Source: Lactiplantibacillus plantarum
Lineage (GTDB): Bacteria > Bacillota > Bacilli > Lactobacillales > Lactobacillaceae
Reading direction: 5' to 3'
DNA: 64,000 nt
Assembly: GCF_014131735.1 (NCBI RefSeq)
Contig: NZ_CP039121.1
Span: forward strand, 992,001-1,056,000
Of this stretch, positions 6,797 through 64,000 are shown piece after piece. The notes below the pieces were generated by a model. The model saw nothing but the letters and a program-made list of their open reading frames with translations. It ran no database searches and was not told the origin of the DNA. Each line of letters opens with the position of its first letter. The first letter of the stretch is position 1. A program made the translations under genes and the position numbers.

Positions 6797-7948
6797 ATGT
6801 TGAAACACTTATTACCACTAGGAACCCGGGATGAATTTGGTCGGCGGGCACGTACCAAACAACACTTGATCGCGGTGATCCAAGCCCATTTTAAACAACG
6901 CGGGTTCGCGCCAATTGCAACGCCGTTATTAGAAAACGAAGCGGTGTTTGATCCATATCAGATGGGTAACTACCAACTATACCGCTTATTTGGCAACGAT
7001 GGTCGCACCTTGGTCTTACGGCCGGACATGACCTTACCAGTTGCTCGCTTCATTAGCGCGACGAATGTCCCCTTACCGCAAAAGTTTGGTTATGTCGGCG
7101 ATATCTTTCGAGTAAGCCGTCAATTATCAGGTTCATATAACCAAATCACACAAGCGGGAGTCGAATTAGTCGGTTACGCATCGCTGAAAGCCGAATTTGA
7201 ATGTTTAACGATTGCCAACCAGCTTTCAAGTGAGCTGATTGCCGATGCTGTTGAAATCGAATTAGGAGATGCCCAATTTGCACAACGGGTCGTGGCCAGC
7301 TTGACTGGTGACGAAGGCGAACAACAAGCCATTTTAACCGCACTGTTCGATAAGCAAGTACCACGCTACACGAAATTGATTGCCAAGTACCGCGCACAGC
7401 CTTTATACGATTTTCTCAAAGCATGGCCGCGTTTGTTCGGGCGTCCAGAATGTATCTTCAAAGAATTAGCGGCAGCACCACTACCTGAAACAGTCCAACC
7501 AAGTCTGAAACGGCTTCAAACGGTGGTGGCCTGGATGCAACAAACGATGCCGGAGCAAGTCATCTCGGTGGATTTGAGTAGCCAAGCACCACAAAAATAC
7601 TATACCGGCCTGACTTTTCGGGGTTATTCACAAGCGGGGGCTGGCTACCTGTTCAGCGGCGGCCGTTACGACAAACTGTTAACGAACTTTCAAGCTGAAG
7701 CAGAACCGGCTGTGGGAATGGGGTTAAACGTTGACTTGTTAACAACTTTAGCCACCGACCAACAGACCGCTTATGCTGAACAATTGATTTACTTTGAGCC
7801 TGAACAGTGGTCACAAGCGGAGGCATACTTAGCGAAACAACCGCACGCCATTTTGAGTTTGGCGGATGACTTAGCAGGTGCGCGCATCGAAGCACAACGT
7901 TTGAATGCCCAACTGATTGATTTAACTGGAGGTATGACCAATGACTGA
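6797..7948 (+). CDS. hisZ: ATP phosphoribosyltransferase regulatory subunit HisZ
   Basis: 383 residues. It is a class II histidyl-tRNA synthetase-like catalytic fold without a full anticodon-binding domain: LPLGTRDEFGRR motif at the start, VLRPDMTLPVARF, and SGGRYDKLL near the end. HisZ has no aminoacylation role; it forms the hetero-octamer with the short HisG and confers histidine feedback control on the first pathway step. Its presence agrees with the 218-residue short HisG encoded next. AGGAGG is 7 bases before the ATG. It is the first gene after the T-box and overlaps hisG by 8 bases. Confidence 0.95.
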   Translation: MLKHLLPLGTRDEFGRRARTKQHLIAVIQAHFKQRGFAPIATPLLENEAVFDPYQMGNYQLYRLFGNDGRTLVLRPDMTLPVARFISATNVPLPQKFGYVGDIFRVSRQLSGSYNQITQAGVELVGYASLKAEFECLTIANQLSSELIADAVEIELGDAQFAQRVVASLTGDEGEQQAILTALFDKQVPRYTKLIAKYRAQPLYDFLKAWPRLFGRPECIFKELAAAPLPETVQPSLKRLQTVVAWMQQTMPEQVISVDLSSQAPQKYYTGLTFRGYSQAGAGYLFSGGRYDKLLTNFQAEAEPAVGMGLNVDLLTTLATDQQTAYAEQLIYFEPEQWSQAEAYLAKQPHAILSLADDLAGARIEAQRLNAQLIDLTGGMTND

Positions 7949-8597
7949 ACCACGTTTAAAGATTGCCTTGACTAAGGGCCGCGTCGAACAACAAGTCCTG
8001 CCGTTGCTGGAAGAAGCTGGACTGGATTGTTCGCAAGTCCGCAACAAGCAACGGCGGTTGATTTTTGATTCTGAGACGCAACCATATGAGTTTATTTTAG
8101 CGAAAGGGCCGGACGTGACGACCTTCCTCGAACGGGGTGCTGCTGATATCGGCATCGTTGGTAGCGATATTTTGACTGAACACGAGAGTACCCAATATGA
8201 ACTGTTAGACTTGGGGGTTGGTAAGTGCCAATTTGTGCTAGCATCCACGGCCGACTTTGATCCCGTTGCACCACGACGCAAAATCATCGGCACCAAGTAC
8301 CCATTGATTACCCAACGGTATTTTGATCGCTTGGGCCAAGATGTTGAAATTATTAAGATTGAAGGCTCGGTTGAATTAGCACCACTGACTGGCTTAGCCG
8401 ACGCCATCGTAGATATCACCGAGACGGGGACCACGATTCGTGAGAACCATTTACAAATTTATGACTATTTACAACCAGTCTCGACCCGCCTAGTGGTCAA
8501 CCGGTTAGCCTTAAAACAGCAACAAGCCGCCATCTTTGATTTAGTTGATCGGTTGGCCACAGTTGTTGATACGAATAATCCAAAGGAGTTTGTCTAA
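7941..8597 (+). CDS. hisG: ATP phosphoribosyltransferase catalytic subunit, short form
   Basis: 218 residues, the HisZ-dependent short form lacking the C-terminal regulatory ACT-like domain. It begins LKIALTKGRVEQQVLPLLEEAG and includes the PRPP-binding loop IVDITETGTTIREN. It condenses ATP with PRPP to phosphoribosyl-ATP, the committed step. It overlaps hisZ by 8 bases and ends in a TAATG overlap with hisD, indicating translational coupling. Confidence 0.96.
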   Translation: MTEPRLKIALTKGRVEQQVLPLLEEAGLDCSQVRNKQRRLIFDSETQPYEFILAKGPDVTTFLERGAADIGIVGSDILTEHESTQYELLDLGVGKCQFVLASTADFDPVAPRRKIIGTKYPLITQRYFDRLGQDVEIIKIEGSVELAPLTGLADAIVDITETGTTIRENHLQIYDYLQPVSTRLVVNRLALKQQQAAIFDLVDRLATVVDTNNPKEFV

Positions 8598-11167: not shown

Positions 11168-11867
11168 TTTACGAGCCGGTCAGAGTGTCCGGCTCTACCA
11201 AGGTGATTTTAAACAGGCGACATTGATTAATCCTGATCCTGTCGTTCAAGCCCAACAAATTAACGCAGCGGGCTTGCAGCAATTACACATGGTCGATTTG
11301 GACGGTGCCAAGTCAGGGCGCCCAGAAAACTTCGCGACAATCACGGCGATCCGGCAAGCATTTACCGGGACGATCGAGCTCGGTGGAGGTATTCGAACCT
11401 ACGAGCTGGCGACTCGTTATCTCGAATTAGGAATCGATCGCTTAATCTTGGGGTCAGTTGCGTTGACTGATCCACGACTGGTCAAACGACTGTTAAGTGA
11501 GTTTGGTGGTGAGCGAATTGTGATTGGGTTAGACGGAACCAATGGTTATGTGGCAATTAAAGGCTGGTTGGAGCAGTCACAGACCAAGATGAGTACATTA
11601 ATGAAGACAATGACTACGAGTGGTGCCAAGCACTTTATCGTGACCGATGTCGCCCGTGATGGCACGATGCAAGGCCCTAACCTTGCGTTATACCAAGAAC
11701 TACAAGCACAGGTGCCCACGGCCAACCTGATTGCCAGCGGTGGCGTTCGGAATTTGACCGATGTTCAAGTGTTACAAGCCAGTGGGTTCAAGGATGTTAT
11801 TATTGGCAAGGCGTTAGCTGAAGGCGGTGTGACACTGGCCGAATTAGCGGGGGTGACTGAATGTTAG
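11148..11867 (+). CDS. hisA: ProFAR isomerase (phosphoribosylformimino-AICAR isomerase)
   Basis: 239 residues, a (beta/alpha)8 barrel with the half-barrel phosphate-binding repeats (GGGIR; ASGGVRN) and a catalytic Asp in PAIDLRAG. It opens the ribose ring of ProFAR to PRFAR, the substrate of HisF/HisH. The family usually starts at MIFPAIDL, giving 11148; an in-frame GTG at 11142 has slightly better spacing to AAGGA and would add two residues. It overlaps hisH by about 20 bases and hisF by 7. Confidence 0.95.
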
Positions 11868-56475: not shown

Positions 56476-58470
56476 ATGAGCTTTTTAGAATTACACGATA
56501 TTCGTAAGGCCTATACCTTAAATCACCAAGAGAATGTCATCTTGAAGGGCATTAATCTAAACTTCGAACGGGGGGAGTTTATTTCCATTCTTGGGGAGTC
56601 TGGTGGTGGTAAGTCAACGTTAATGAATATTATTGGTGGCTTGGATCATCATTATGATGGAGATGTCTTGTTAGACGGCCAATCCTTGCGTTCAATGAAT
56701 GTGCGGCAAATGGACCGGTATCGTCGGGAGACAATCGGGTTTATCTTTCAGAACTTTAACTTGGTAAGTTACCTAACTGTCTTGGATAACGTCATGCTTT
56801 CATTAAAGATGACTAAGACGTCCCATGCGCAACAAGTCCAGCAAGCACAGGACCTACTCAAGCGGGTGGGACTTGAGCAGCAGACGCACCAGTATCCAAA
56901 TGAACTATCCGGTGGTCAAAAGCAACGGGTCGCCATCGCTCGCGCACTAGCCAGTGACCCCGATATTATTATCGCAGATGAGCCGACCGGGGCGTTGGAT
57001 AGTGAAAATACCCAAGAAGTAATGGATATTTTATACTCAATCGCTGCGGAAGGTAAACTTGTGATCACCGTGACCCATTCGCAGGAAGTGGCTGACTACG
57101 GGACGCGGATCGTTCATTTGGATGACGGCCAGATTCATGACGAATTAGTGATCGGGGCGCCTTTCGACGTGGTCGATAAGCAACCGACGCGTTACCGAAC
57201 ACTTGGCTTTCGGCAGATGTTCCGGATGTCCATGCAACATATGCGTCGAATGTGGCTTCGTTACCTGCTGATTATCTTTGGATCGTCGATCGGGATCAGT
57301 AGTATCGTCGTAATGCTGGGCTTGGGATCAGGGATTCAAAATTATATGAATCACCAGATTACGTCTCAAGTTAATCCAACCGCTGTCCAAGTATCAAAGA
57401 AGACGGGGAAAGTCAGCACGGCTGCGCGTAAAAAAGCAACCAGTGCAGCAGCTTACAAAGCAGCGGTTAACCAAGAACAAGTCACAGCCGCGAAGAATGC
57501 CGAAGTGACGACTGCAAACGTCAAACAATTAGCGGCTATCAAACATGTTAAGTCTGCTAAGCTGGGCTATTACACGAGCACACAAGCGAGTTATAAAAAA
57601 ACAACCGTGACGGCCAGTCTCCAGACGGATAACCCCACAATTTTGAGTAAGACAATTAAGGACGGTTCACGTCCTGAAAATGGTCAAGTTTTGATTGGTC
57701 GTAAGTTAGCTAAGAAGATGGTGGGTAAGAAAAATTATCAACAAGCGCTCAATAAGAAGTTGACCGTTAAATTGGCAACGGTTAATCGCAAGAATCAGTC
57801 CGTAACGGTCAGTCAGACGCTGACCGTCAGCGGAATTACGGGTAGCGATGATACTAGCGTCGTGGTCTTACCACAAACCGTCAAAAAGATGTTAACTGCT
57901 AAGAATGTGGCTTATCGACCAAATTTTGCCATTGTTCAAATAGATAAATTGGCGAATGTTAAGCAAGTCGAACACCAAATCAAGGCAATCAAGGGAACGA
58001 ATAAGAAGCAACAGTATAACTATACCGGAATCGGTGATTTAATTGATTCATTGAATACCTATATTCGTTTAGCCACTAACGTATTGACCGGGGTGGCTGG
58101 TATTGCGTTATTAGTCTCAGCAATTATGATCATTGTTGTCCTGTACGTCAGCGTTTCTGAACGGACTCGTGAAATTGGGGTTTTGCGCGCACTTGGCGCC
58201 CGCAAACGCGATATTAGTCATTTGTTCTTTGCTGAGGCCTTAACTATCGGGGTATTAGCCGCCGTTATGGGGTTACTGTTTGGAGAAGGTTGGCAATTCT
58301 TAGGCAATATGGCCATCTATAGCTTAATTAAGTATCCAATCGTTCGAATCTCCGGGGCAGCAATGCTGGGCGGCATTACAGTCAGTGTTGTCATCAGTTT
58401 ATTGGCTGCTTTGGCACCGGCACATATGGCGGCACGGTTGGATCCAGTCGAGAGTTTATCACATGAATAA
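56476..58470 (+). CDS. MacB-like ABC transporter: ATPase fused to FtsX-type permease
   Basis: 664 residues. An N-terminal ABC domain (about 1-225) has Walker A GESGGGKST (40-48), signature LSGGQKQRVAIARAL and Walker B IIADEPTGALD. The permease part has one membrane segment near 260-280, a large Lys/Ala/Thr-rich extracellular domain (about 290-535) and three segments at the C-terminus (about 545-655), the MacB/FtsX layout. Such proteins export or expel peptides, or act in immunity to bacteriocins, rather than importing. GGAGG precedes the ATG. First gene of a three-gene operon leading to the peptide array; the glycosyltransferase follows after 17 bases. Confidence 0.9.
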   Translation: MSFLELHDIRKAYTLNHQENVILKGINLNFERGEFISILGESGGGKSTLMNIIGGLDHHYDGDVLLDGQSLRSMNVRQMDRYRRETIGFIFQNFNLVSYLTVLDNVMLSLKMTKTSHAQQVQQAQDLLKRVGLEQQTHQYPNELSGGQKQRVAIARALASDPDIIIADEPTGALDSENTQEVMDILYSIAAEGKLVITVTHSQEVADYGTRIVHLDDGQIHDELVIGAPFDVVDKQPTRYRTLGFRQMFRMSMQHMRRMWLRYLLIIFGSSIGISSIVVMLGLGSGIQNYMNHQITSQVNPTAVQVSKKTGKVSTAARKKATSAAAYKAAVNQEQVTAAKNAEVTTANVKQLAAIKHVKSAKLGYYTSTQASYKKTTVTASLQTDNPTILSKTIKDGSRPENGQVLIGRKLAKKMVGKKNYQQALNKKLTVKLATVNRKNQSVTVSQTLTVSGITGSDDTSVVVLPQTVKKMLTAKNVAYRPNFAIVQIDKLANVKQVEHQIKAIKGTNKKQQYNYTGIGDLIDSLNTYIRLATNVLTGVAGIALLVSAIMIIVVLYVSVSERTREIGVLRALGARKRDISHLFFAEALTIGVLAAVMGLLFGEGWQFLGNMAIYSLIKYPIVRISGAAMLGGITVSVVISLLAALAPAHMAARLDPVESLSHE

Positions 58471-58487: not shown

Positions 58488-60065
58488 ATGTATTTCTTTA
58501 TTACGAGCAAAATTGATTCGACGCCATCAGCTATTGAGTTAGCCATGATTCAGCGTCAAAAATTATTCACAAAGCACCGGGTACCTGCGTTGATCGTGAC
58601 CCGTAACTTTGTACGCGATTTACATCATAATATGCAACTCATTGGGTATGATGATGAGTTCCAGGTCAATATGTATGATTATTTTCAAGGCACTACGAAT
58701 TACGAAGGCGAACCGTTAACTGCGGCCAATTATCCACGGGTGACGGGTGAAACGCTGGAACGGGTCAGCGCTAATGAATTTGACGTCATTCAACGGGAAC
58801 AACGGCAAAAAGCACTGATGTTAAATGCGCAGGGGAATATTGATTACGTCGATATTCTCAATCCACAGGGCGCGGTCAGCCGTCGAGACTATTATGATAC
58901 GCGGGGCTTCTTAACGGTGGCCCAGTACTTTGATGACAAGCAGAATATTGTGTTAGAGCAACACTGTAATTTACAACAACAGCCTGTCTTAGAGACGTTT
59001 TTCCGGCCAAATGAGAAGCAACAACCAGTTGCCACTCATCAACGGCTGTTAAACTATCACGGGCATAATTACGAATTTGAGGACTGGGATCAGCTGACTG
59101 CCTTTTTCTTAGACGCGTTAAATACTGAGTATGGCGGTCACGGAACCATGATCGTGGATCGTAGTGATGCTGGAATGAATCCGATTGTTAAAATGTCCAC
59201 AGCAGCGCGCAAGTATGAGTTCTTACACAGTAATTTCACGCTGGACCCACTTGACGTTGTGAACTCACCAATTGTGCCGTACACTCAAATCGGGTTAGAT
59301 CACGCCAGTCAAATGGCTGGTTTGATCATGTCCACGCAAGAAGAGTGTGATGATATGACGAACCACATTCATAATGTGATTCCAACTTTAGCGATTCCAG
59401 TTGGTAGTGTAAGTGACGAACAATTAGCAGCTCGTCCGGTTGACTTTAAGGATCGGATTGAGGGCAAGGTGATTGCCGTTGCTCGCTTATCGGCAGAGAA
59501 AAATTTGGAACAATTGATTAAGGCGGTCGCCTATGTTCATGAAAAACAGTCGAATGTGACCTTAGATATTTATGGTTATGGTGATTCATGGACTGGATTT
59601 AAAGAAGAAAATCGGTTGCGAGCCTTGGTCAGTTCGCAACGTTGGCAGTCATTTATCACGTTTAAGGGCTTTGAGCGCGATTTGACACCGGTCTATAACC
59701 AAGCACAACTGATGGTCCTTACTAGCCAATATGAGGGCTTTAACTTAGGTATTTTAGAAGGGTTAAGTCATGGCGTTCCGGTGGTTGCCTATGACATTAA
59801 GTATGGTCCGGCAACGATGATTACGGATGGTGAAAATGGGCGATTGATCACCCCCAATAATTTAGTTGAATTGGGCAAGGTGATTTTAACGCTCTTACAA
59901 CACCCTAAACAGTTGGCGAAGATGAGTGAACGGGCATATGGCAACAGTAGCCGTTTTTCTGAGGCTATGATTTGGCAACGGTGGAATGATCATGTCATTC
60001 AGCCTGATATTCAAGCAATGAGGGGAGTTACAACCAATGGAAACGCATATCACGTCATCGGCTAA
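58488..60065 (+). CDS. GT4-type glycosyltransferase, GtfA/TagE-like
   Basis: 525 residues. The N-terminal half starts MYFFITSKIDSTPSAIELAM, followed by QRQKLFTKHRVPALIVTRNF, as in GtfA (Ser/Thr O-glycosyltransferase of the accessory Sec system) and TagE-like enzymes. The C-terminal GT-B domain has ARLSAEKNLEQLI, YGYGDSW and the EX7E motif Glu416/Glu424 in YEGFNLGILEG, with GHGTMIVDRSD earlier. It would transfer a sugar (often GlcNAc or glucose) to Ser/Thr of a protein or to a teichoic-acid polymer. It lies in the operon feeding the Ser/Thr-rich peptide array, so a peptide acceptor is attractive but unproven. No GtfB-like partner is present. Overlaps the exporter gene by 29 bases. Confidence 0.88.
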   Translation: MYFFITSKIDSTPSAIELAMIQRQKLFTKHRVPALIVTRNFVRDLHHNMQLIGYDDEFQVNMYDYFQGTTNYEGEPLTAANYPRVTGETLERVSANEFDVIQREQRQKALMLNAQGNIDYVDILNPQGAVSRRDYYDTRGFLTVAQYFDDKQNIVLEQHCNLQQQPVLETFFRPNEKQQPVATHQRLLNYHGHNYEFEDWDQLTAFFLDALNTEYGGHGTMIVDRSDAGMNPIVKMSTAARKYEFLHSNFTLDPLDVVNSPIVPYTQIGLDHASQMAGLIMSTQEECDDMTNHIHNVIPTLAIPVGSVSDEQLAARPVDFKDRIEGKVIAVARLSAEKNLEQLIKAVAYVHEKQSNVTLDIYGYGDSWTGFKEENRLRALVSSQRWQSFITFKGFERDLTPVYNQAQLMVLTSQYEGFNLGILEGLSHGVPVVAYDIKYGPATMITDGENGRLITPNNLVELGKVILTLLQHPKQLAKMSERAYGNSSRFSEAMIWQRWNDHVIQPDIQAMRGVTTNGNAYHVIG

Positions 60066-61800
60066 ACAACCACATGCCAAGTATGGGACCCGTGATTTAT
60101 TGAGATTGATCATGACCCATGCTCACCCGAAGAAGGGACTCTTTGTGATTGGAATCCTGTTGTCGTTTGTCGCAACGATTTGTAGTCTTGGCATTACGTT
60201 GATGTTGAAGGAGTTTATCGACGCCTTTAACCATGGTACTTCGGGTCAACTGTTGCTTCGGTTAGGCGCTGTGATTGTCGTGCAGCTATTTGCAAGTGTT
60301 GCGTCGAGTTTTCTACTTAGTTATACGGGGGTCGACGCCGTTTCGACGTTGCGGAGCGCGTTATGGCAACATATCGTGGACTTGCCGATTCCGTATTTTG
60401 ACCATAACCGGACGGGGGAACTGTCTAGTCGGGTAGTTAACGATACATCGACGATTTTTGAATTGATTTCAAGTCAGTTTTCGAATGCCATTAATGGGAT
60501 CATCTCAATTGTGGGTTCCTTGACGTTAATGTTGTTATTAAACTTCCGCTTAACGATTATTATTTTAATTGTGGTTCCATTGATGGCCGTGATCATTGTG
60601 CCAATGGGTCAAGTGTTAGCGCGGATCTCCAAAGCGATTCAAAAAGAAACGGCCAACTTAAATAGTGCAGCAGTACAAATGATTGGTCAAAATCGGTTAG
60701 TGAAAGCAATGGTTGCTGAAAAGGCACTGAAAAAACAGGGAAAAGATCAAGTTGATCGGATCAAAGGCTTCAGTGTCCGTCAAATCAAGCTGATCTCGGT
60801 GCTTAATCCAGTGCTAAACATCATGTTACTGGCCGCAATTTTCATTATCATTGTTTATGGTGGGATCTTGGTACAAACGAACGCGTTGACAATTGGAAGT
60901 TTAGTAGCTTTCTTAATGTATGCCGTTCAAATGATTTCACCACTGAGTAGCGTAACGGGCTTAGTGACTGCCTTGCAACAAACGGTCGGGGCAACTGAGC
61001 GAATCGACAACATTTTAGATAGTCCGGAAGAAGATAAGCGGTTGTCAGGCGAAACGCTGTCAACAATCGATACGGTCGACTTTGATCACGTCGATTTTGG
61101 CTACGAAAGTGATAAACCGGTGCTTAAGGACATTGATTTGACAATTCATCGCGGTGAGCGGATTGCCTTGATTGGTGAGAGTGGTAGCGGGAAAACGACC
61201 TTAGTTTCGCTCTTAGAGGCTTACTATACGCCAACTCGTGGTGAGCTGGACGTGAATGGCGAGACAATGGCCAGTTATACGATTCCCTCGATTCGTAATC
61301 AGATCGGCTACGTGAGTCAAGAAGTAGACTTGATGCCCGGGACGATTCGCGATAATCTCCTGTTAGGTTCGACGGAACCGGTCTCTGATGAACAATTGAG
61401 TGCGTTGTTGACACAAGTCGGCTTAGCGGACTGGCTAGCTGAACTGTCAGCTGGTCTTGATACGGACGTCGGTGAACGGGGCTTGAATGTTTCTGGTGGA
61501 CAGCGGCAACGTTTGGCCATCGTCCGGGCACTCGTCCGCCACCCGTCGTTATTGATTTTAGACGAAGCGACGGCTAGTCTTGATAATCAGAACCAAGAAC
61601 GGGTGACCCAGCTCTTGGCGACGTTACCAGCTGACCTGACGACTATTACGATTGTCCATCGGTTAAACCAGATCGAAGCTTATCCGCGAATTCTCTTCAT
61701 GGAGGATGGTCAGATTACGGGTGATGGCAATCATGAGTCCTTATTAGCAACCCATGAACGTTATCGTGACTTTTATCGGCTGCAGTATCAACACGGTTAA
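60037..61800 (+). CDS. Half-size ABC exporter (BmrA/LmrA-type, peptide or lipid)
   Basis: 587 residues. Six membrane segments (about 30-300) are followed by an ATPase domain: Walker A GESGSGKTT (380-388), signature LNVSGGQRQRL (483-), Walker B LLILDEATASLD. There is no C39 peptidase domain, so it cannot cleave a double-glycine leader. Presumed homodimer, exporting a hydrophobic or peptide substrate. GGGGAG stands 9 bases before the ATG, inside the glycosyltransferase gene. Terminator after it; the peptide array begins 636 bases downstream on the same strand. Confidence 0.9.
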   Translation: METHITSSAKQPHAKYGTRDLLRLIMTHAHPKKGLFVIGILLSFVATICSLGITLMLKEFIDAFNHGTSGQLLLRLGAVIVVQLFASVASSFLLSYTGVDAVSTLRSALWQHIVDLPIPYFDHNRTGELSSRVVNDTSTIFELISSQFSNAINGIISIVGSLTLMLLLNFRLTIIILIVVPLMAVIIVPMGQVLARISKAIQKETANLNSAAVQMIGQNRLVKAMVAEKALKKQGKDQVDRIKGFSVRQIKLISVLNPVLNIMLLAAIFIIIVYGGILVQTNALTIGSLVAFLMYAVQMISPLSSVTGLVTALQQTVGATERIDNILDSPEEDKRLSGETLSTIDTVDFDHVDFGYESDKPVLKDIDLTIHRGERIALIGESGSGKTTLVSLLEAYYTPTRGELDVNGETMASYTIPSIRNQIGYVSQEVDLMPGTIRDNLLLGSTEPVSDEQLSALLTQVGLADWLAELSAGLDTDVGERGLNVSGGQRQRLAIVRALVRHPSLLILDEATASLDNQNQERVTQLLATLPADLTTITIVHRLNQIEAYPRILFMEDGQITGDGNHESLLATHERYRDFYRLQYQHG

Positions 61801-61840: not shown

Positions 61841-61879
61841 AAGTGGTTATTGCTGAGTGTTGGCAATAGCCACTTTTTT
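61841..61879 (+). terminator. Terminator after the exporter gene
   Basis: AAGTGGTTATTGC pairs with GCAATAGCCACTT, then T-run. It separates the operon from the array. Confidence 0.9.
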
Positions 61880-62436
61880 GATCCCAAAATATGTATTCAA
61901 CTGGATAACGTGGGTTAAGGCATGAAATAAAACCGCCGTAAAAAATATAAAAAGTATTAATAATTTTAATAATAAGTCGAAAAAAGCGATATTTATAATT
62001 ATTTTTTAGGGAATAAATTTCCCGATGGTATGGTTCATAATTCGGAAAAAAAGAGGGGATGTCGCAGCAAGCAACTACGCTGAAATGCTGATATTATCAG
62101 GGGTTTAAACGCTTTCTGCTGGCATAGTTAACTGGTGATAAATATAAATAATATTGATATTGGACACAAATTTTGACCGTTAATGAAACGCGTAAGTTGT
62201 CCATAGTATACACATTTACTGATTGAATATGATACTGCCCTGTATTTATTCAAATATTAGTAATTTTATTGACGATTGTGGGGCGAATTAGTTAATATTT
62301 AAATCGTAAACGAGGTTACTTGTTTAACGTTCGCATTAGTAATCAATATTAGTTATTTAACAGACTAAATTAAATTAATGATTATTGAGCTGCTAATTTG
62401 TGAACAATTTGTAAATTTTCTAAGGAGGATATTAAC
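61880..62436 (+). promoter_or_regulatory. Long AT-rich region upstream of the peptide array
   Basis: About 560 bases with no gene. TTGACG (62269-62274), a 17-base spacer and TTAATA (62292-62297) form a possible promoter. The inverted TGGACA..AA / TTGTCCA around 62160-62205 might be an operator. Its length and low GC suggest a regulated, long-leader transcript. Confidence 0.35.
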
Positions 62437-62568
62437 ATGAGTTTCTTCAGTGATTTACATCTCTTACCAGGGACCCACACATCATCACATACTAGTTATG
62501 TCAGCAACCAACCACTTGGTACTTTCTATCAGTTTGTGTTGAACGTGATTGCCGCAATCAAAGGTTAA
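62437..62568 (+). CDS. Array peptide 1, type A, 43 residues
   Basis: Starts MSFFSDLHLLPGTHTSSHTS and has a middle VSNQPLGTFYQ. The C-terminal FVLNVIAAIKG is hydrophobic with one Lys. The N-terminal half contains three His and many Ser/Thr; no Cys is present. AAGGAGG is 9 bases upstream. Same subtype as peptide 8. No double-Gly leader, signal peptide or known family; presumably exported, perhaps after glycosylation. Confidence 0.85.
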   Translation: MSFFSDLHLLPGTHTSSHTSYVSNQPLGTFYQFVLNVIAAIKG

Positions 62569-62739
62569 GCGTTGCTAGAGACGGGTGTTAGGGAATTCAA
62601 TGATTAATTAGTTGAATTTTCTAACTGTTTAATCAAGTTTGTCGGAATTTAATTTGTTTTCCAAACTCTCAAGTCTTGCCATACAAGTGGCTAGGCTTGG
62701 GGATTTAACCATTAACTAACTTAAAAGGAGGAGTTATTC

Positions 62740-62883
62740 ATGAGTTTCTTTACTGATTTGCACTTCTTACCGGGAACCCACACGTCATCATACACATCAA
62801 GTGTTTCAAATGACATCTTCGGTGGCTTCCACAGCTTCATCTTAAACTTGATTCCTGCAATCAAGAGTTTGTTCAGCAAATAA
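62740..62883 (+). CDS. Array peptide 2, type B, long C-terminus, 47 residues
   Basis: Starts MSFFTDLHFLPGTHTSSYTS; middle SVSNDIFGGFHSF; ends ILNLIPAIKSLFSK. The longer, Pro-containing tail is shared with peptide 6. AAGGAGGAG upstream. It is preceded by a spacer of 171 bases with no other gene. Confidence 0.85.
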   Translation: MSFFTDLHFLPGTHTSSYTSSVSNDIFGGFHSFILNLIPAIKSLFSK

Positions 62884-62913
62884 TCATAGTTAATTTTATA
62901 GGAGGATTTCAAC

Positions 62914-63045
62914 ATGAGTTTCTTTAACGATTTCCACGTATTACCAGGTACGCATACGTCATCATACACATCAAGTGTTTCAAACGATATCTTCGGTGGT
63001 TTCCACAGCTTCGTCTTGAACTTGATTGCTGCATTCAAAAAGTAA
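62914..63045 (+). CDS. Array peptide 3, type B, 43 residues
   Basis: Starts MSFFNDFHVLPGTHTSSYTS; ends FVLNLIAAFKK. The protein is identical to peptides 4 and 5; the DNA differs only at a few third positions. TAGGAGGA upstream. Confidence 0.85.
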   Translation: MSFFNDFHVLPGTHTSSYTSSVSNDIFGGFHSFVLNLIAAFKK

Positions 63046-63077
63046 TTTAGTCAAACAATCATAGGAGGATTTACATT

Positions 63078-63209
63078 ATGAGTTTCTTTAACGATTTCCA
63101 CGTATTACCAGGTACACATACGTCATCATACACATCAAGTGTTTCAAACGATATCTTTGGTGGCTTCCACAGCTTCGTCTTGAACTTGATCGCTGCATTC
63201 AAAAAGTAA
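63078..63209 (+). CDS. Array peptide 4, type B, 43 residues
   Basis: Protein identical to peptides 3 and 5. Silent differences include ACG/ACA for Thr in the PGT stretch, ATCTTC/ATCTTT and ATT/ATC. Preceded by the conserved spacer with AGGAGG. Confidence 0.85.
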   Translation: MSFFNDFHVLPGTHTSSYTSSVSNDIFGGFHSFVLNLIAAFKK

Positions 63210-63241
63210 TTTAGTCAAACAATTATAGGAGGATTTACATT

Positions 63242-63373
63242 ATGAGTTTCTTTAACGATTTCCACGTATTACCAGGTACGCATACGTCATCATACACATC
63301 AAGTGTTTCAAACGACATCTTCGGTGGTTTCCATAGCTTCGTCTTGAACTTGATTGCTGCATTCAAAAAGTAA
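63242..63373 (+). CDS. Array peptide 5, type B, 43 residues
   Basis: Protein identical to peptides 3 and 4. Silent differences in the Asp (GAC) and His (CAT) codons of the NDIFGGFHS block. Conserved 164-base unit. Confidence 0.85.
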   Translation: MSFFNDFHVLPGTHTSSYTSSVSNDIFGGFHSFVLNLIAAFKK

Positions 63374-63405
63374 TTTAGTCAAACAATCATAGGAGGATTT
63401 ACATT

Positions 63406-63549
63406 ATGAGTTTCTTTAACGATTTCCATGTATTACCAGGTACACATACGTCATCATACACATCAAGTGTTTCAAACGACATTTTCGGTGGTTTCCATAG
63501 CTTTATCTTAAACTTGATTCCTGCAATCAAGAGCTTATTCAGCAAGTAA
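63406..63549 (+). CDS. Array peptide 6, type B, long C-terminus, 47 residues
   Basis: Same N-terminal two-thirds as peptides 3-5, then FILNLIPAIKSLFSK as in peptide 2. This looks like a recombinant between the peptide 3-5 head and the peptide 2 tail. Confidence 0.85.
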   Translation: MSFFNDFHVLPGTHTSSYTSSVSNDIFGGFHSFILNLIPAIKSLFSK

Positions 63550-63580
63550 TCAAAACTAATCTTTTAGGAGGATTTATATT

Positions 63581-63712
63581 ATGAGTTTCTTTAACGATTT
63601 TCACGTATTACCAGGTACGCATACGTCATCATACACATCAAGTGTTTCAAATGATATCTTTGGTGGCTTGCACAGCTTCATCTTGAACGTTATTAAAGCG
63701 ATCAAGGGATAA
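63581..63712 (+). CDS. Array peptide 7, type B, 43 residues, variant tail
   Basis: Same head as peptides 3-6; GGL for GGF, and the tail HSFILNVIKAIKG has an extra Lys inside the hydrophobic helix. TTAGGAGGA upstream. Confidence 0.85.
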   Translation: MSFFNDFHVLPGTHTSSYTSSVSNDIFGGLHSFILNVIKAIKG

Positions 63713-63790
63713 TCTATTTCGATAAACTAATTAATTAATATATTAATTAATGTCTTGATATTATTTAGATAATGAGGGAGGATATACATT

Positions 63791-63922
63791 ATGAGTTTCT
63801 TTTCAGATTTACACTTTTTACCAGGTACGCATACTTCATCACACACCAGCTACGTTAGCAACCAACCACTTGGTACTTTCTACCAATTCGTATTGAACGT
63901 AATTGCTGCATTCAAAGGCTAA
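63791..63922 (+). CDS. Array peptide 8, type A, 43 residues
   Basis: Starts MSFFSDLHFLPGTHTSSHTS and ends FVLNVIAAFKG, differing from peptide 1 at only two residues, although it lies at the other side of the type B block. GGGAGGA upstream. Confidence 0.85.
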   Translation: MSFFSDLHFLPGTHTSSHTSYVSNQPLGTFYQFVLNVIAAFKG

Positions 63923-63951
63923 TTAATTAACAATTAAAGGGGATTAATCTC

Positions 63952-64000
63952 ATGAGTTTTTTCAATGATTTTCATATTTTACCAGGTACACACACATCAT
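63952..64000 (+). CDS. Array peptide 9, 3' end outside window
   Basis: Only the first 16 codons are visible: MSFFNDFHILPGTHTS, the invariant head. AAAGGGG lies upstream. It shows the array continues past the window. Confidence 0.8.
   Translation, partial: MSFFNDFHILPGTHTS

Follow-up and report, generated by a model that had tools for sequence, protein, structure and literature searches.

The described systems closest to the subject of this report are small leaderless peptides, on the one hand, and adhesin O-glycosylation loci, on the other. The staphylococcal PSM-beta and SLUSH peptides are leaderless tandem peptides of ~44 amino acids (aa) that carry a near-neutral charge and are exported by an ATP-binding cassette (ABC) system, Pmt. 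Aureocin A70 also has an ABC transporter nearby, and SdgA and SdgB act as O-glycosyltransferases of Ser-Asp-repeat adhesins. In the multi-peptide leaderless bacteriocins, which include aureocin A70, garvicin KS, and the cereucins, small paralogous leaderless peptides are encoded together (PMC6131525), and the same source lists net charges of +2 to +9 for leaderless bacteriocins (Table 2) and reports that LmrB, of the ABC multidrug type, takes part in the secretion of leaderless LsbB. Here we describe a tandem array of nine tiny genes at the 3' end of a 64,000-nucleotide stretch of Lactiplantibacillus plantarum DNA (assembly GCF_014131735.1, contig NZ_CP039121.1, positions 992,001 to 1,056,000), this whole stretch being referred to as the window. 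We propose, with a probability of about 0.5, that the array encodes leaderless secreted peptides that are exported by a neighbouring ABC protein and act on membranes or surfaces.

The array likewise encodes small paralogous peptides side by side, and these harbor neither a conserved Gly-Gly nor a signal-peptide-like start, so that they appear leaderless as far as sequence can tell. The multi-peptide leaderless bacteriocins come in 3-4 copies, whereas unbroken arrays in sister species hold 8-10. The peptides are 40-47 aa long with a Ser/Thr-rich head predicted to be non-helical, and their charge is about -0.3 rather than +2 to +9 (median net charge -0.3 at pH 7 and +2.2 at pH 4.5, for 59 distinct peptides with formyl-Met assumed). 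Given the value at pH 4.5, cationic behaviour could appear in acidified medium. Where a saposin-like fold or an LsbB-like N-terminal helix might be looked for, the structural model displays a single C-terminal helix and a low-confidence head. By charge or by detected similarity the peptides do not belong to the leaderless bacteriocins, whose known subgroups gave no similarity via Pfam, NCBIfam, or PDB sequences; these searches, rather than pairwise comparison, set the two apart. An earlier note on this DNA had likened the peptides to leaderless membrane-active ones. An exporter without a peptidase domain agrees with the leaderless export that this implies, the charge differs from that of leaderless bacteriocins, and the likeness is a functional one at best.

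The PSM-beta and SLUSH peptides with Pmt resemble the array in size (about 44 aa), lack of a leader, tandem layout, near-neutral charge, and ABC export, a resemblance drawn at the level of general description. They differ in their head motif and in that the exporter here is a one-piece protein of the MsbA/BmrA type, and no match to a PSM-beta family was found in Pfam or NCBIfam at E values up to 10. The Gly-Gly-leader (class II) bacteriocins and pheromones are distinguished by a conserved Gly-Gly cleavage site and a C39 exporter; Gly29 is present in only part of the units, and the exporter beside the array has no C39 domain. The genes that flank the array, encoding a glycosyltransferase, a coiled-coil protein, and a Ser-rich KxYKxGKxW/LPxTG adhesin, look like those of adhesin O-glycosylation loci (SdgA/SdgB, accessory-Sec GtfA/GtfB); to our knowledge, a tiny-peptide array and two ABC proteins are not among the parts of such loci as described.

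The peptide array and its signals

All nine units lie on the forward strand and fall into two subtypes, of which the first carries N-D-[IPV]-FGG (DIFGG) and the second N-[QAV]-P-[LF]-G (QPLGT), in the order Q D D D D D D Q D. The QPLGT subtype comprises unit 1 (62437..62568) and unit 8 (63791..63922), each of 43 aa. The DIFGG subtype comprises unit 2 (62740..62883, 47 aa), unit 3 (62914..63045, 43 aa), units 4 (63078..63209) and 5 (63242..63373), whose proteins are the same as that of unit 3, unit 6 (63406..63549, 47 aa), unit 7 (63581..63712, 43 aa), and unit 9 (43 aa). Unit 9 begins at 63952, passes the window end at 64000, and ends 83 bases further on; it occupies positions 1953-2084 of L004, the fetched stretch that overlaps the 3' end of the window. 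The "at least nine" genes of the earlier note are consequently exactly nine, with eight complete reading frames that bear the head described there and a ninth that crosses the window end, and a protein search of the same genome returned nine matches, all at the array. Its lengths of 43-47 codons and absence of Cys also held (the proteins have either 43 or 47 aa), as did the presence of several subtypes, since both are kept together in 12 of 14 loci, the first occurring alone in two contig-end pieces of two units each. Two of its generalizations apply to part of the array: the peptides end in Lys in units 2-6 and in Lys-Gly in units 1, 7, 8, and 9, and the Shine-Dalgarno site of each gene is strong in units 1-8 and weaker in unit 9. 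The gaps between units measure 29-32 nt at six of the eight junctions.

The pattern of their differences shows the units to be real genes under purifying selection. Over all 36 unit pairs (first 42 codons, nine units), the ratio of nonsynonymous to synonymous differences per site (pN/pS) is 0.24 (pN 0.123, pS 0.517), and the three pairs among units 3, 4, and 5 show 2, 4, and 6 synonymous changes and no nonsynonymous one. Together with recurrence of the array in 12 of the 21 Lactiplantibacillus genomes searched, these values place the observation beyond chance. Pattern-based collection across 12 genomes gave 83 complete units at 14 loci, with contig-end fragments excluded, and pN/pS over the 81 distinct units free of N is 0.22. 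Invariant in all 81 are M1, F4, H8, L10, P11, G12, T13, H14, T15, S17, V22, N24, G28, F33, L35, and K42, although the pattern itself required Met, H8, LPGT, and F or Y at position 4, which leaves only the remaining positions as free evidence. Two departures from this form were seen: a natural L. plantarum variant, P0024, is missing the LPGTHTSSYT stretch and retains the C-terminal part, and in G007 a single unit whose head is replaced (P0049, MGIYIFWKAGLPTTSSASHTSSVSN..., L040:about 7921-8055) stands on a contig other than that of the array.

Each peptide has a conserved head of the form H-x-LPGTHT-x-S, then a middle part rich in Ser and Thr, and finally a helix that is predicted for the C-terminal part. 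The helix had been proposed in the earlier note and is predicted by AlphaFold2 from 24 sequences as a single helix at residues 23-42, with a predicted local distance difference test score (pLDDT) of about 91 for residues 31-40; the head has a pLDDT of 53-54, and the predicted template modelling score is 0.32. Its amphipathic character is seen as a family average, in that the averaged hydrophobic moment exceeds that of shuffled sequences (p 0.019 and 0.036 for two ranges, and 0.028 for the Convivina type described below). For single sequences amphipathicity is not significant and was set aside, as 2 of 63 beat shuffling at 0.05.

The array appears to form its own transcription unit. In the gap behind the exporter gene lies a forward-strand terminator-like hairpin (61841..61875; -19.7 kcal/mol, z -5.5, with the window sequence alone folded) that is followed by a T run and whose sequence is present in all five aligned genomes. 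A promoter-like TTGACG-N18-TAATAT is found 5' of the array (62269..62298, forward strand). Taken over all its hits, the promoter scan gave no more than shuffled sequence would (6 against 10.2 expected), so this site is argued from conservation, the array leader being conserved in the five aligned genomes. Downstream of it is an operator-like palindrome, GTAAACGAGGTTACTTGTTTAAC (62306..62328); as GTAAACnAGGTTACTTGTTTnAC it occurs as a single copy in its own genome at up to 3 mismatches, and its core is exact in 10 of the 11 arrays for which the upstream region was fetched and degenerate in G015, where 3 bases differ. A candidate binder is the MarR regulator encoded in the module. No CcpA site was found in the leader at 0-1 mismatch to the consensus. 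A further forward-strand hairpin, without a T run, stands between units 1 and 2 (62667..62702; -20.7 kcal/mol, z -3.6) and, following a QPLGT unit, may set the ratio of the subtypes.

The surrounding module and its distribution

The array is embedded in a gene module with the order MacB-type ABC transporter, SdgA/B-like glycosyltransferase, MsbA/BmrA-type ABC exporter, array, KxYKxGKxW/MucBP/LPxTG adhesin, coiled-coil protein, and MarR regulator. The first gene (56476..58470, forward strand) encodes ABC_tran, MacB_PCD, and FtsX domains and is present in 10 of the 12 array genomes, these being all in which the upstream side was fetched. It is followed by a GT4 glycosyltransferase of 525 aa (58488..60065, forward strand), closest to SdgA/SdgB and GtfA with all scores below the NCBIfam cut-offs, which probably serves the adhesin. 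The putative peptide exporter (60037..61800, forward strand) has a transmembrane and a nucleotide-binding domain; the solved chains nearest to it are BmrA and then P-glycoproteins and MsbA, and a domain search found no C39 peptidase domain in it. Downstream of unit 9 are the Ser-rich LPxTG/MucBP adhesin with KxYKxGKxW (L004:2202-4958), the coiled-coil protein (L004:5058-7034), and the MarR regulator (L004:7089-7574). The coiled-coil protein has no Pfam match and is called GtfB-like from its position and because its C-terminal half weakly resembles such transferases.

Within Lactiplantibacillus, the array is found in 12 of the 21 genomes searched, including the genome of the window. A thirteenth match, in G010 (E 0.83), was dropped as chance, as was one weak match each in G006 and G013. 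Exactly the same 12 genomes hold an ortholog of the 525-aa transferase (61-100% identity, the best other full-length match being 37%) and of the ABC exporter (80-100%, others among the matches listed reaching at most 37%), and the coiled-coil protein matches at E 9e-95 or better in these 12 and at 6e-22 or weaker elsewhere. The adhesin-type reading frame, which varies from 718 to 1137 aa, and the MarR gene are present in the 11 array genomes in which their side was fetched. The array and both flanks stand on one stretch in seven of the 12 (G000, G002, G011, G013, G015, G016, and G020, with contiguity in G000 taken from two overlapping fetched stretches), and contigs break in or beside the array in the other five. 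Among the reading frames displayed behind pgi in the nine genomes that lack the array (5 to 11 each, pgi included), none is a module ortholog. One of them, G001, has at this place (L164:2286-17304) a 3409-aa protein and two SdgA/B-like transferases with 29-33% identity to that of the window. Adhesin-glycosylation cassettes may have a hot spot at this site behind pgi.

Relatives outside the genus and in sequence collections

Clear relatives outside Lactiplantibacillus were found among 397 genomes of the family in two genera, with two genomes each (G026, G065, G058, and G090). The named matches are Convivina praedatoris, C. intestini, and Lactobacillaceae bacterium L1_55_11, and the protein records name Eupransor demetentiae. 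These peptides of 40 aa, MFSxDFWHILPGSxNTTHxSNSNNxPLANxxxFxLRLFGK, share M1, H-x-LPG, N24, F33, and L35 with the window form, at an identity of just 23-33%. They too are encoded in tandem, with two copies in Convivina and three in the Eupransor-like lineage, and an ABC exporter of 547 or 546 aa comes next on the same strand. The homology is argued from the gap-free motif match, the tandem layout, and the adjoining exporter, because the E values overlap those of chance. Before the first unit of these arrays TTGACA, 17 bases, and TAGAAT or TACAAT can be read by eye. In 19 kb around each of three such loci, a tblastn search (1e-3) matched only the exporter and its ATPase part; the transferase, the adhesin, the coiled-coil protein, and the MarR regulator had no relative there. 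Further divergent peptides come from metagenomes (P0048, P0050, and P0051).

Other matches were not retained. In the same 397-genome profile search, G182, G188, G264, and G322 were judged chance on reading. A further search gave five more weak matches, which are excluded from the count of relatives (G030, G108, G188, G270, and G274). A profile search of 395 genomes of the order gave 26 with a match at E<=0.05, two of which are members of the genus; the best match in the other 24 was judged chance. One of these 24, G443 (L072, E 0.00125), from another family of the order, has a head-like FFKFFHVLPGTSCTSS in a 47-codon frame that lacks a Met start or tandem copy, and was judged probably chance.

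When the Eupransor-type exporter was searched against 301 family genomes, with four candidates scored per genome, E 1e-85 was reached in 15, namely four of its own kin, three of another genus, g13, and eight array-bearing Lactiplantibacillus. In a first exporter tree, the exporters that adjoin arrays in the two groups fell together (100/99). In G032, of g13, scattered small reading frames with Shine-Dalgarno sites lie near the related exporter (L157:9116-9211 and 11209-11295) and are unlike the array peptides.

The claim of the earlier note that the peptides belong to no known family stands in part. No Pfam family (5 and 13 peptides) or NCBIfam family (5 and 24 peptides) was matched at E up to 10, a profile search of PDB sequences gave one match (E 0.1) that was taken as chance, and LPGTHTSS and further motif strings were not found in papers. 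An unnamed family does exist, however, in phrog_32203, which all 24 aligned members match (best 3.7e-33) and which is annotated with unknown function; two further PHROGs matched one member each (E 0.045 and 0.23). A phage gene family was rejected when 50,697 phage records gave no tblastn match; when viral sequences were scanned again with the Convivina-type alignment, all 72 pattern matches failed confirmation. On nine IMG/VR contigs (ten loci), the array sits at the very edge, with the sequence continuing through the bacterial genes for the adhesin, the coiled-coil protein, and the MarR regulator; an integrase lies inside the fetched stretch in one, L171. Prophage callers overrunning into the array would therefore explain the IMG/VR hits and probably phrog_32203, which is most likely a prophage-edge catch and not a phage gene. 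A plasmid origin likewise found no match in a plasmid search. On the 3' side of the module in the window strain is a prophage-like segment (L004:8822-16602), with an integrase beside tRNA-Glu and CI-like and ImmA-like genes recognised by eye. One IMG/VR array of eight units (L168:294-1776) is close to the window array (62437-64000) but has just two identical copies where the window has three; near-identical arrays thus differ in copy number.

Possible roles of the array peptides

In the mechanism that we favour, the peptides would leave the cell unprocessed through the neighbouring MsbA/BmrA-type ABC protein and would act outside through the C-terminal helix in a membrane-active or surfactant-like manner. 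The conserved head would serve recognition by the exporter or a partner, and the MacB-type ABC protein might provide self-protection. Leaderless export fits because the neighbouring exporter is without a peptidase domain, high copy number with synonymous divergence is consistent with selection for output, and the mixing of subtypes with joint action. The Convivina-type arrays give the export reading an independent context, since they also adjoin an ABC exporter without relatives of the transferase or adhesin. In Lactiplantibacillus the array lies inside an adhesin-glycosylation module, and cell-surface or biofilm action is for that reason as open as killing.

Several observations weigh against this proposal. 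The net charge is near zero, no immunity gene was recognised, and the MacB-type gene is split into two reading frames in G013. The terminator-like hairpin separates the exporter gene from the array; the hairpin after unit 9 (L004:2155-2196, z -6.0) is followed by just four T, and a terminator pattern scan of L004:1-2300 found none. For the Convivina relatives the sequence evidence alone is thin: a profile without these sequences gave E values of 4.8e-5 to 0.0028 per genome, against chance values of up to 0.0016 in the 397 genomes, and later E values come from profiles that already contained them. Once three g13 exporters were added to the tree, those of Lactiplantibacillus were placed beside LmrA-like paralogs (92/88) and the Convivina-type ones with g13, and the idea of an exclusive clade of array exporters was dropped; the partnership of peptide and exporter may, given this separation, have arisen twice. 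No tandem tiny-gene array lies beside any of the three g13 exporters. In a proteogenomic study that probably included the window strain itself (PMC7903761), none of the 31 novel small proteins accepted came from L. plantarum. A re-analysis arrives at 31 (>=10 spectra) or 48 (>=6 spectra) unannotated L. plantarum candidates (PMC8157683). The array peptides would be badly suited to trypsin, which, with one to three Lys close to their C-terminal end, would leave a single long fragment.

The main rivals to export with action on membranes or surfaces are matrix and glycopeptide roles. Structural peptides, forming a surface coat or amyloid-like aggregates that work with the adhesin in biofilm formation or aggregation and have no part in killing, would suit an LPxTG/MucBP adhesin in the module, the high copy number, and the near-neutral charge; no relative of the adhesin lies within 19 kb of the Convivina-type arrays, however, and we regard this role as possible, on the unlikely side. 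If instead the Ser/Thr-rich head were O-glycosylated by the SdgA/SdgB-like transferase, the products would be surface glycopeptides displayed alongside the adhesin. The sharing of array and transferase ortholog by the same 12 of 21 genomes speaks for this, as does the closeness of the transferase to SdgA/SdgB, below curated cut-offs, and the invariance of T15 and S17 in all 81 distinct units (that of T13 was required by the pattern). Yet no transferase relative is found near the Convivina or Eupransor-like arrays, and the Ser-rich adhesin encoded next to the array would be a more obvious target of the transferase, which makes a glycopeptide role doubtful.

A pheromone, released as a short peptide by cleavage, for example after FGG in the DIFGG subtype, is suggested by Gly-Gly at positions 28-29 in 63 of the 81 distinct units. 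However, the other 18 have Thr, Ala, or Ser at position 29, Gly-Gly is absent in the Convivina form, the exporter is without a C39 peptidase, and no sensor gene is among the module genes; such signalling is very unlikely. It is harder still to credit that the units are intracellular toxins of an array like those of type I toxin-antitoxin systems. They are small, hydrophobic, and in tandem, as such toxins would be, but their hydrophobic stretch is short with a polar half, their Shine-Dalgarno sites are strong, the gaps are 29-32 nt at most junctions, no Rfam family reaches the gathering threshold in the array, and the arrays are linked to exporters.

Leaderless export with action at membranes or surfaces could also be combined with glycosylation. 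In that case the array would define a new class of leaderless secreted peptides, encoded in many copies, with a conserved LPGTHTSS head that receives O-glycans from an adhesin-type transferase in Lactiplantibacillus and stays bare in Convivina, a possibility that we consider improbable. If true, it would constitute a glycosylated two-subtype, surface-acting set that joins bacteriocin-like export with adhesin glycosylation. In a well-studied probiotic, food, and gut species, the array represents a conserved, possibly highly expressed set of nine peptide genes that the searched family libraries do not explain. If the peptides are secreted and active, they would have a bearing on competition, adhesion, or biofilm in food and the gut, and would be unusual in combining leaderless export with so many near-identical copies.

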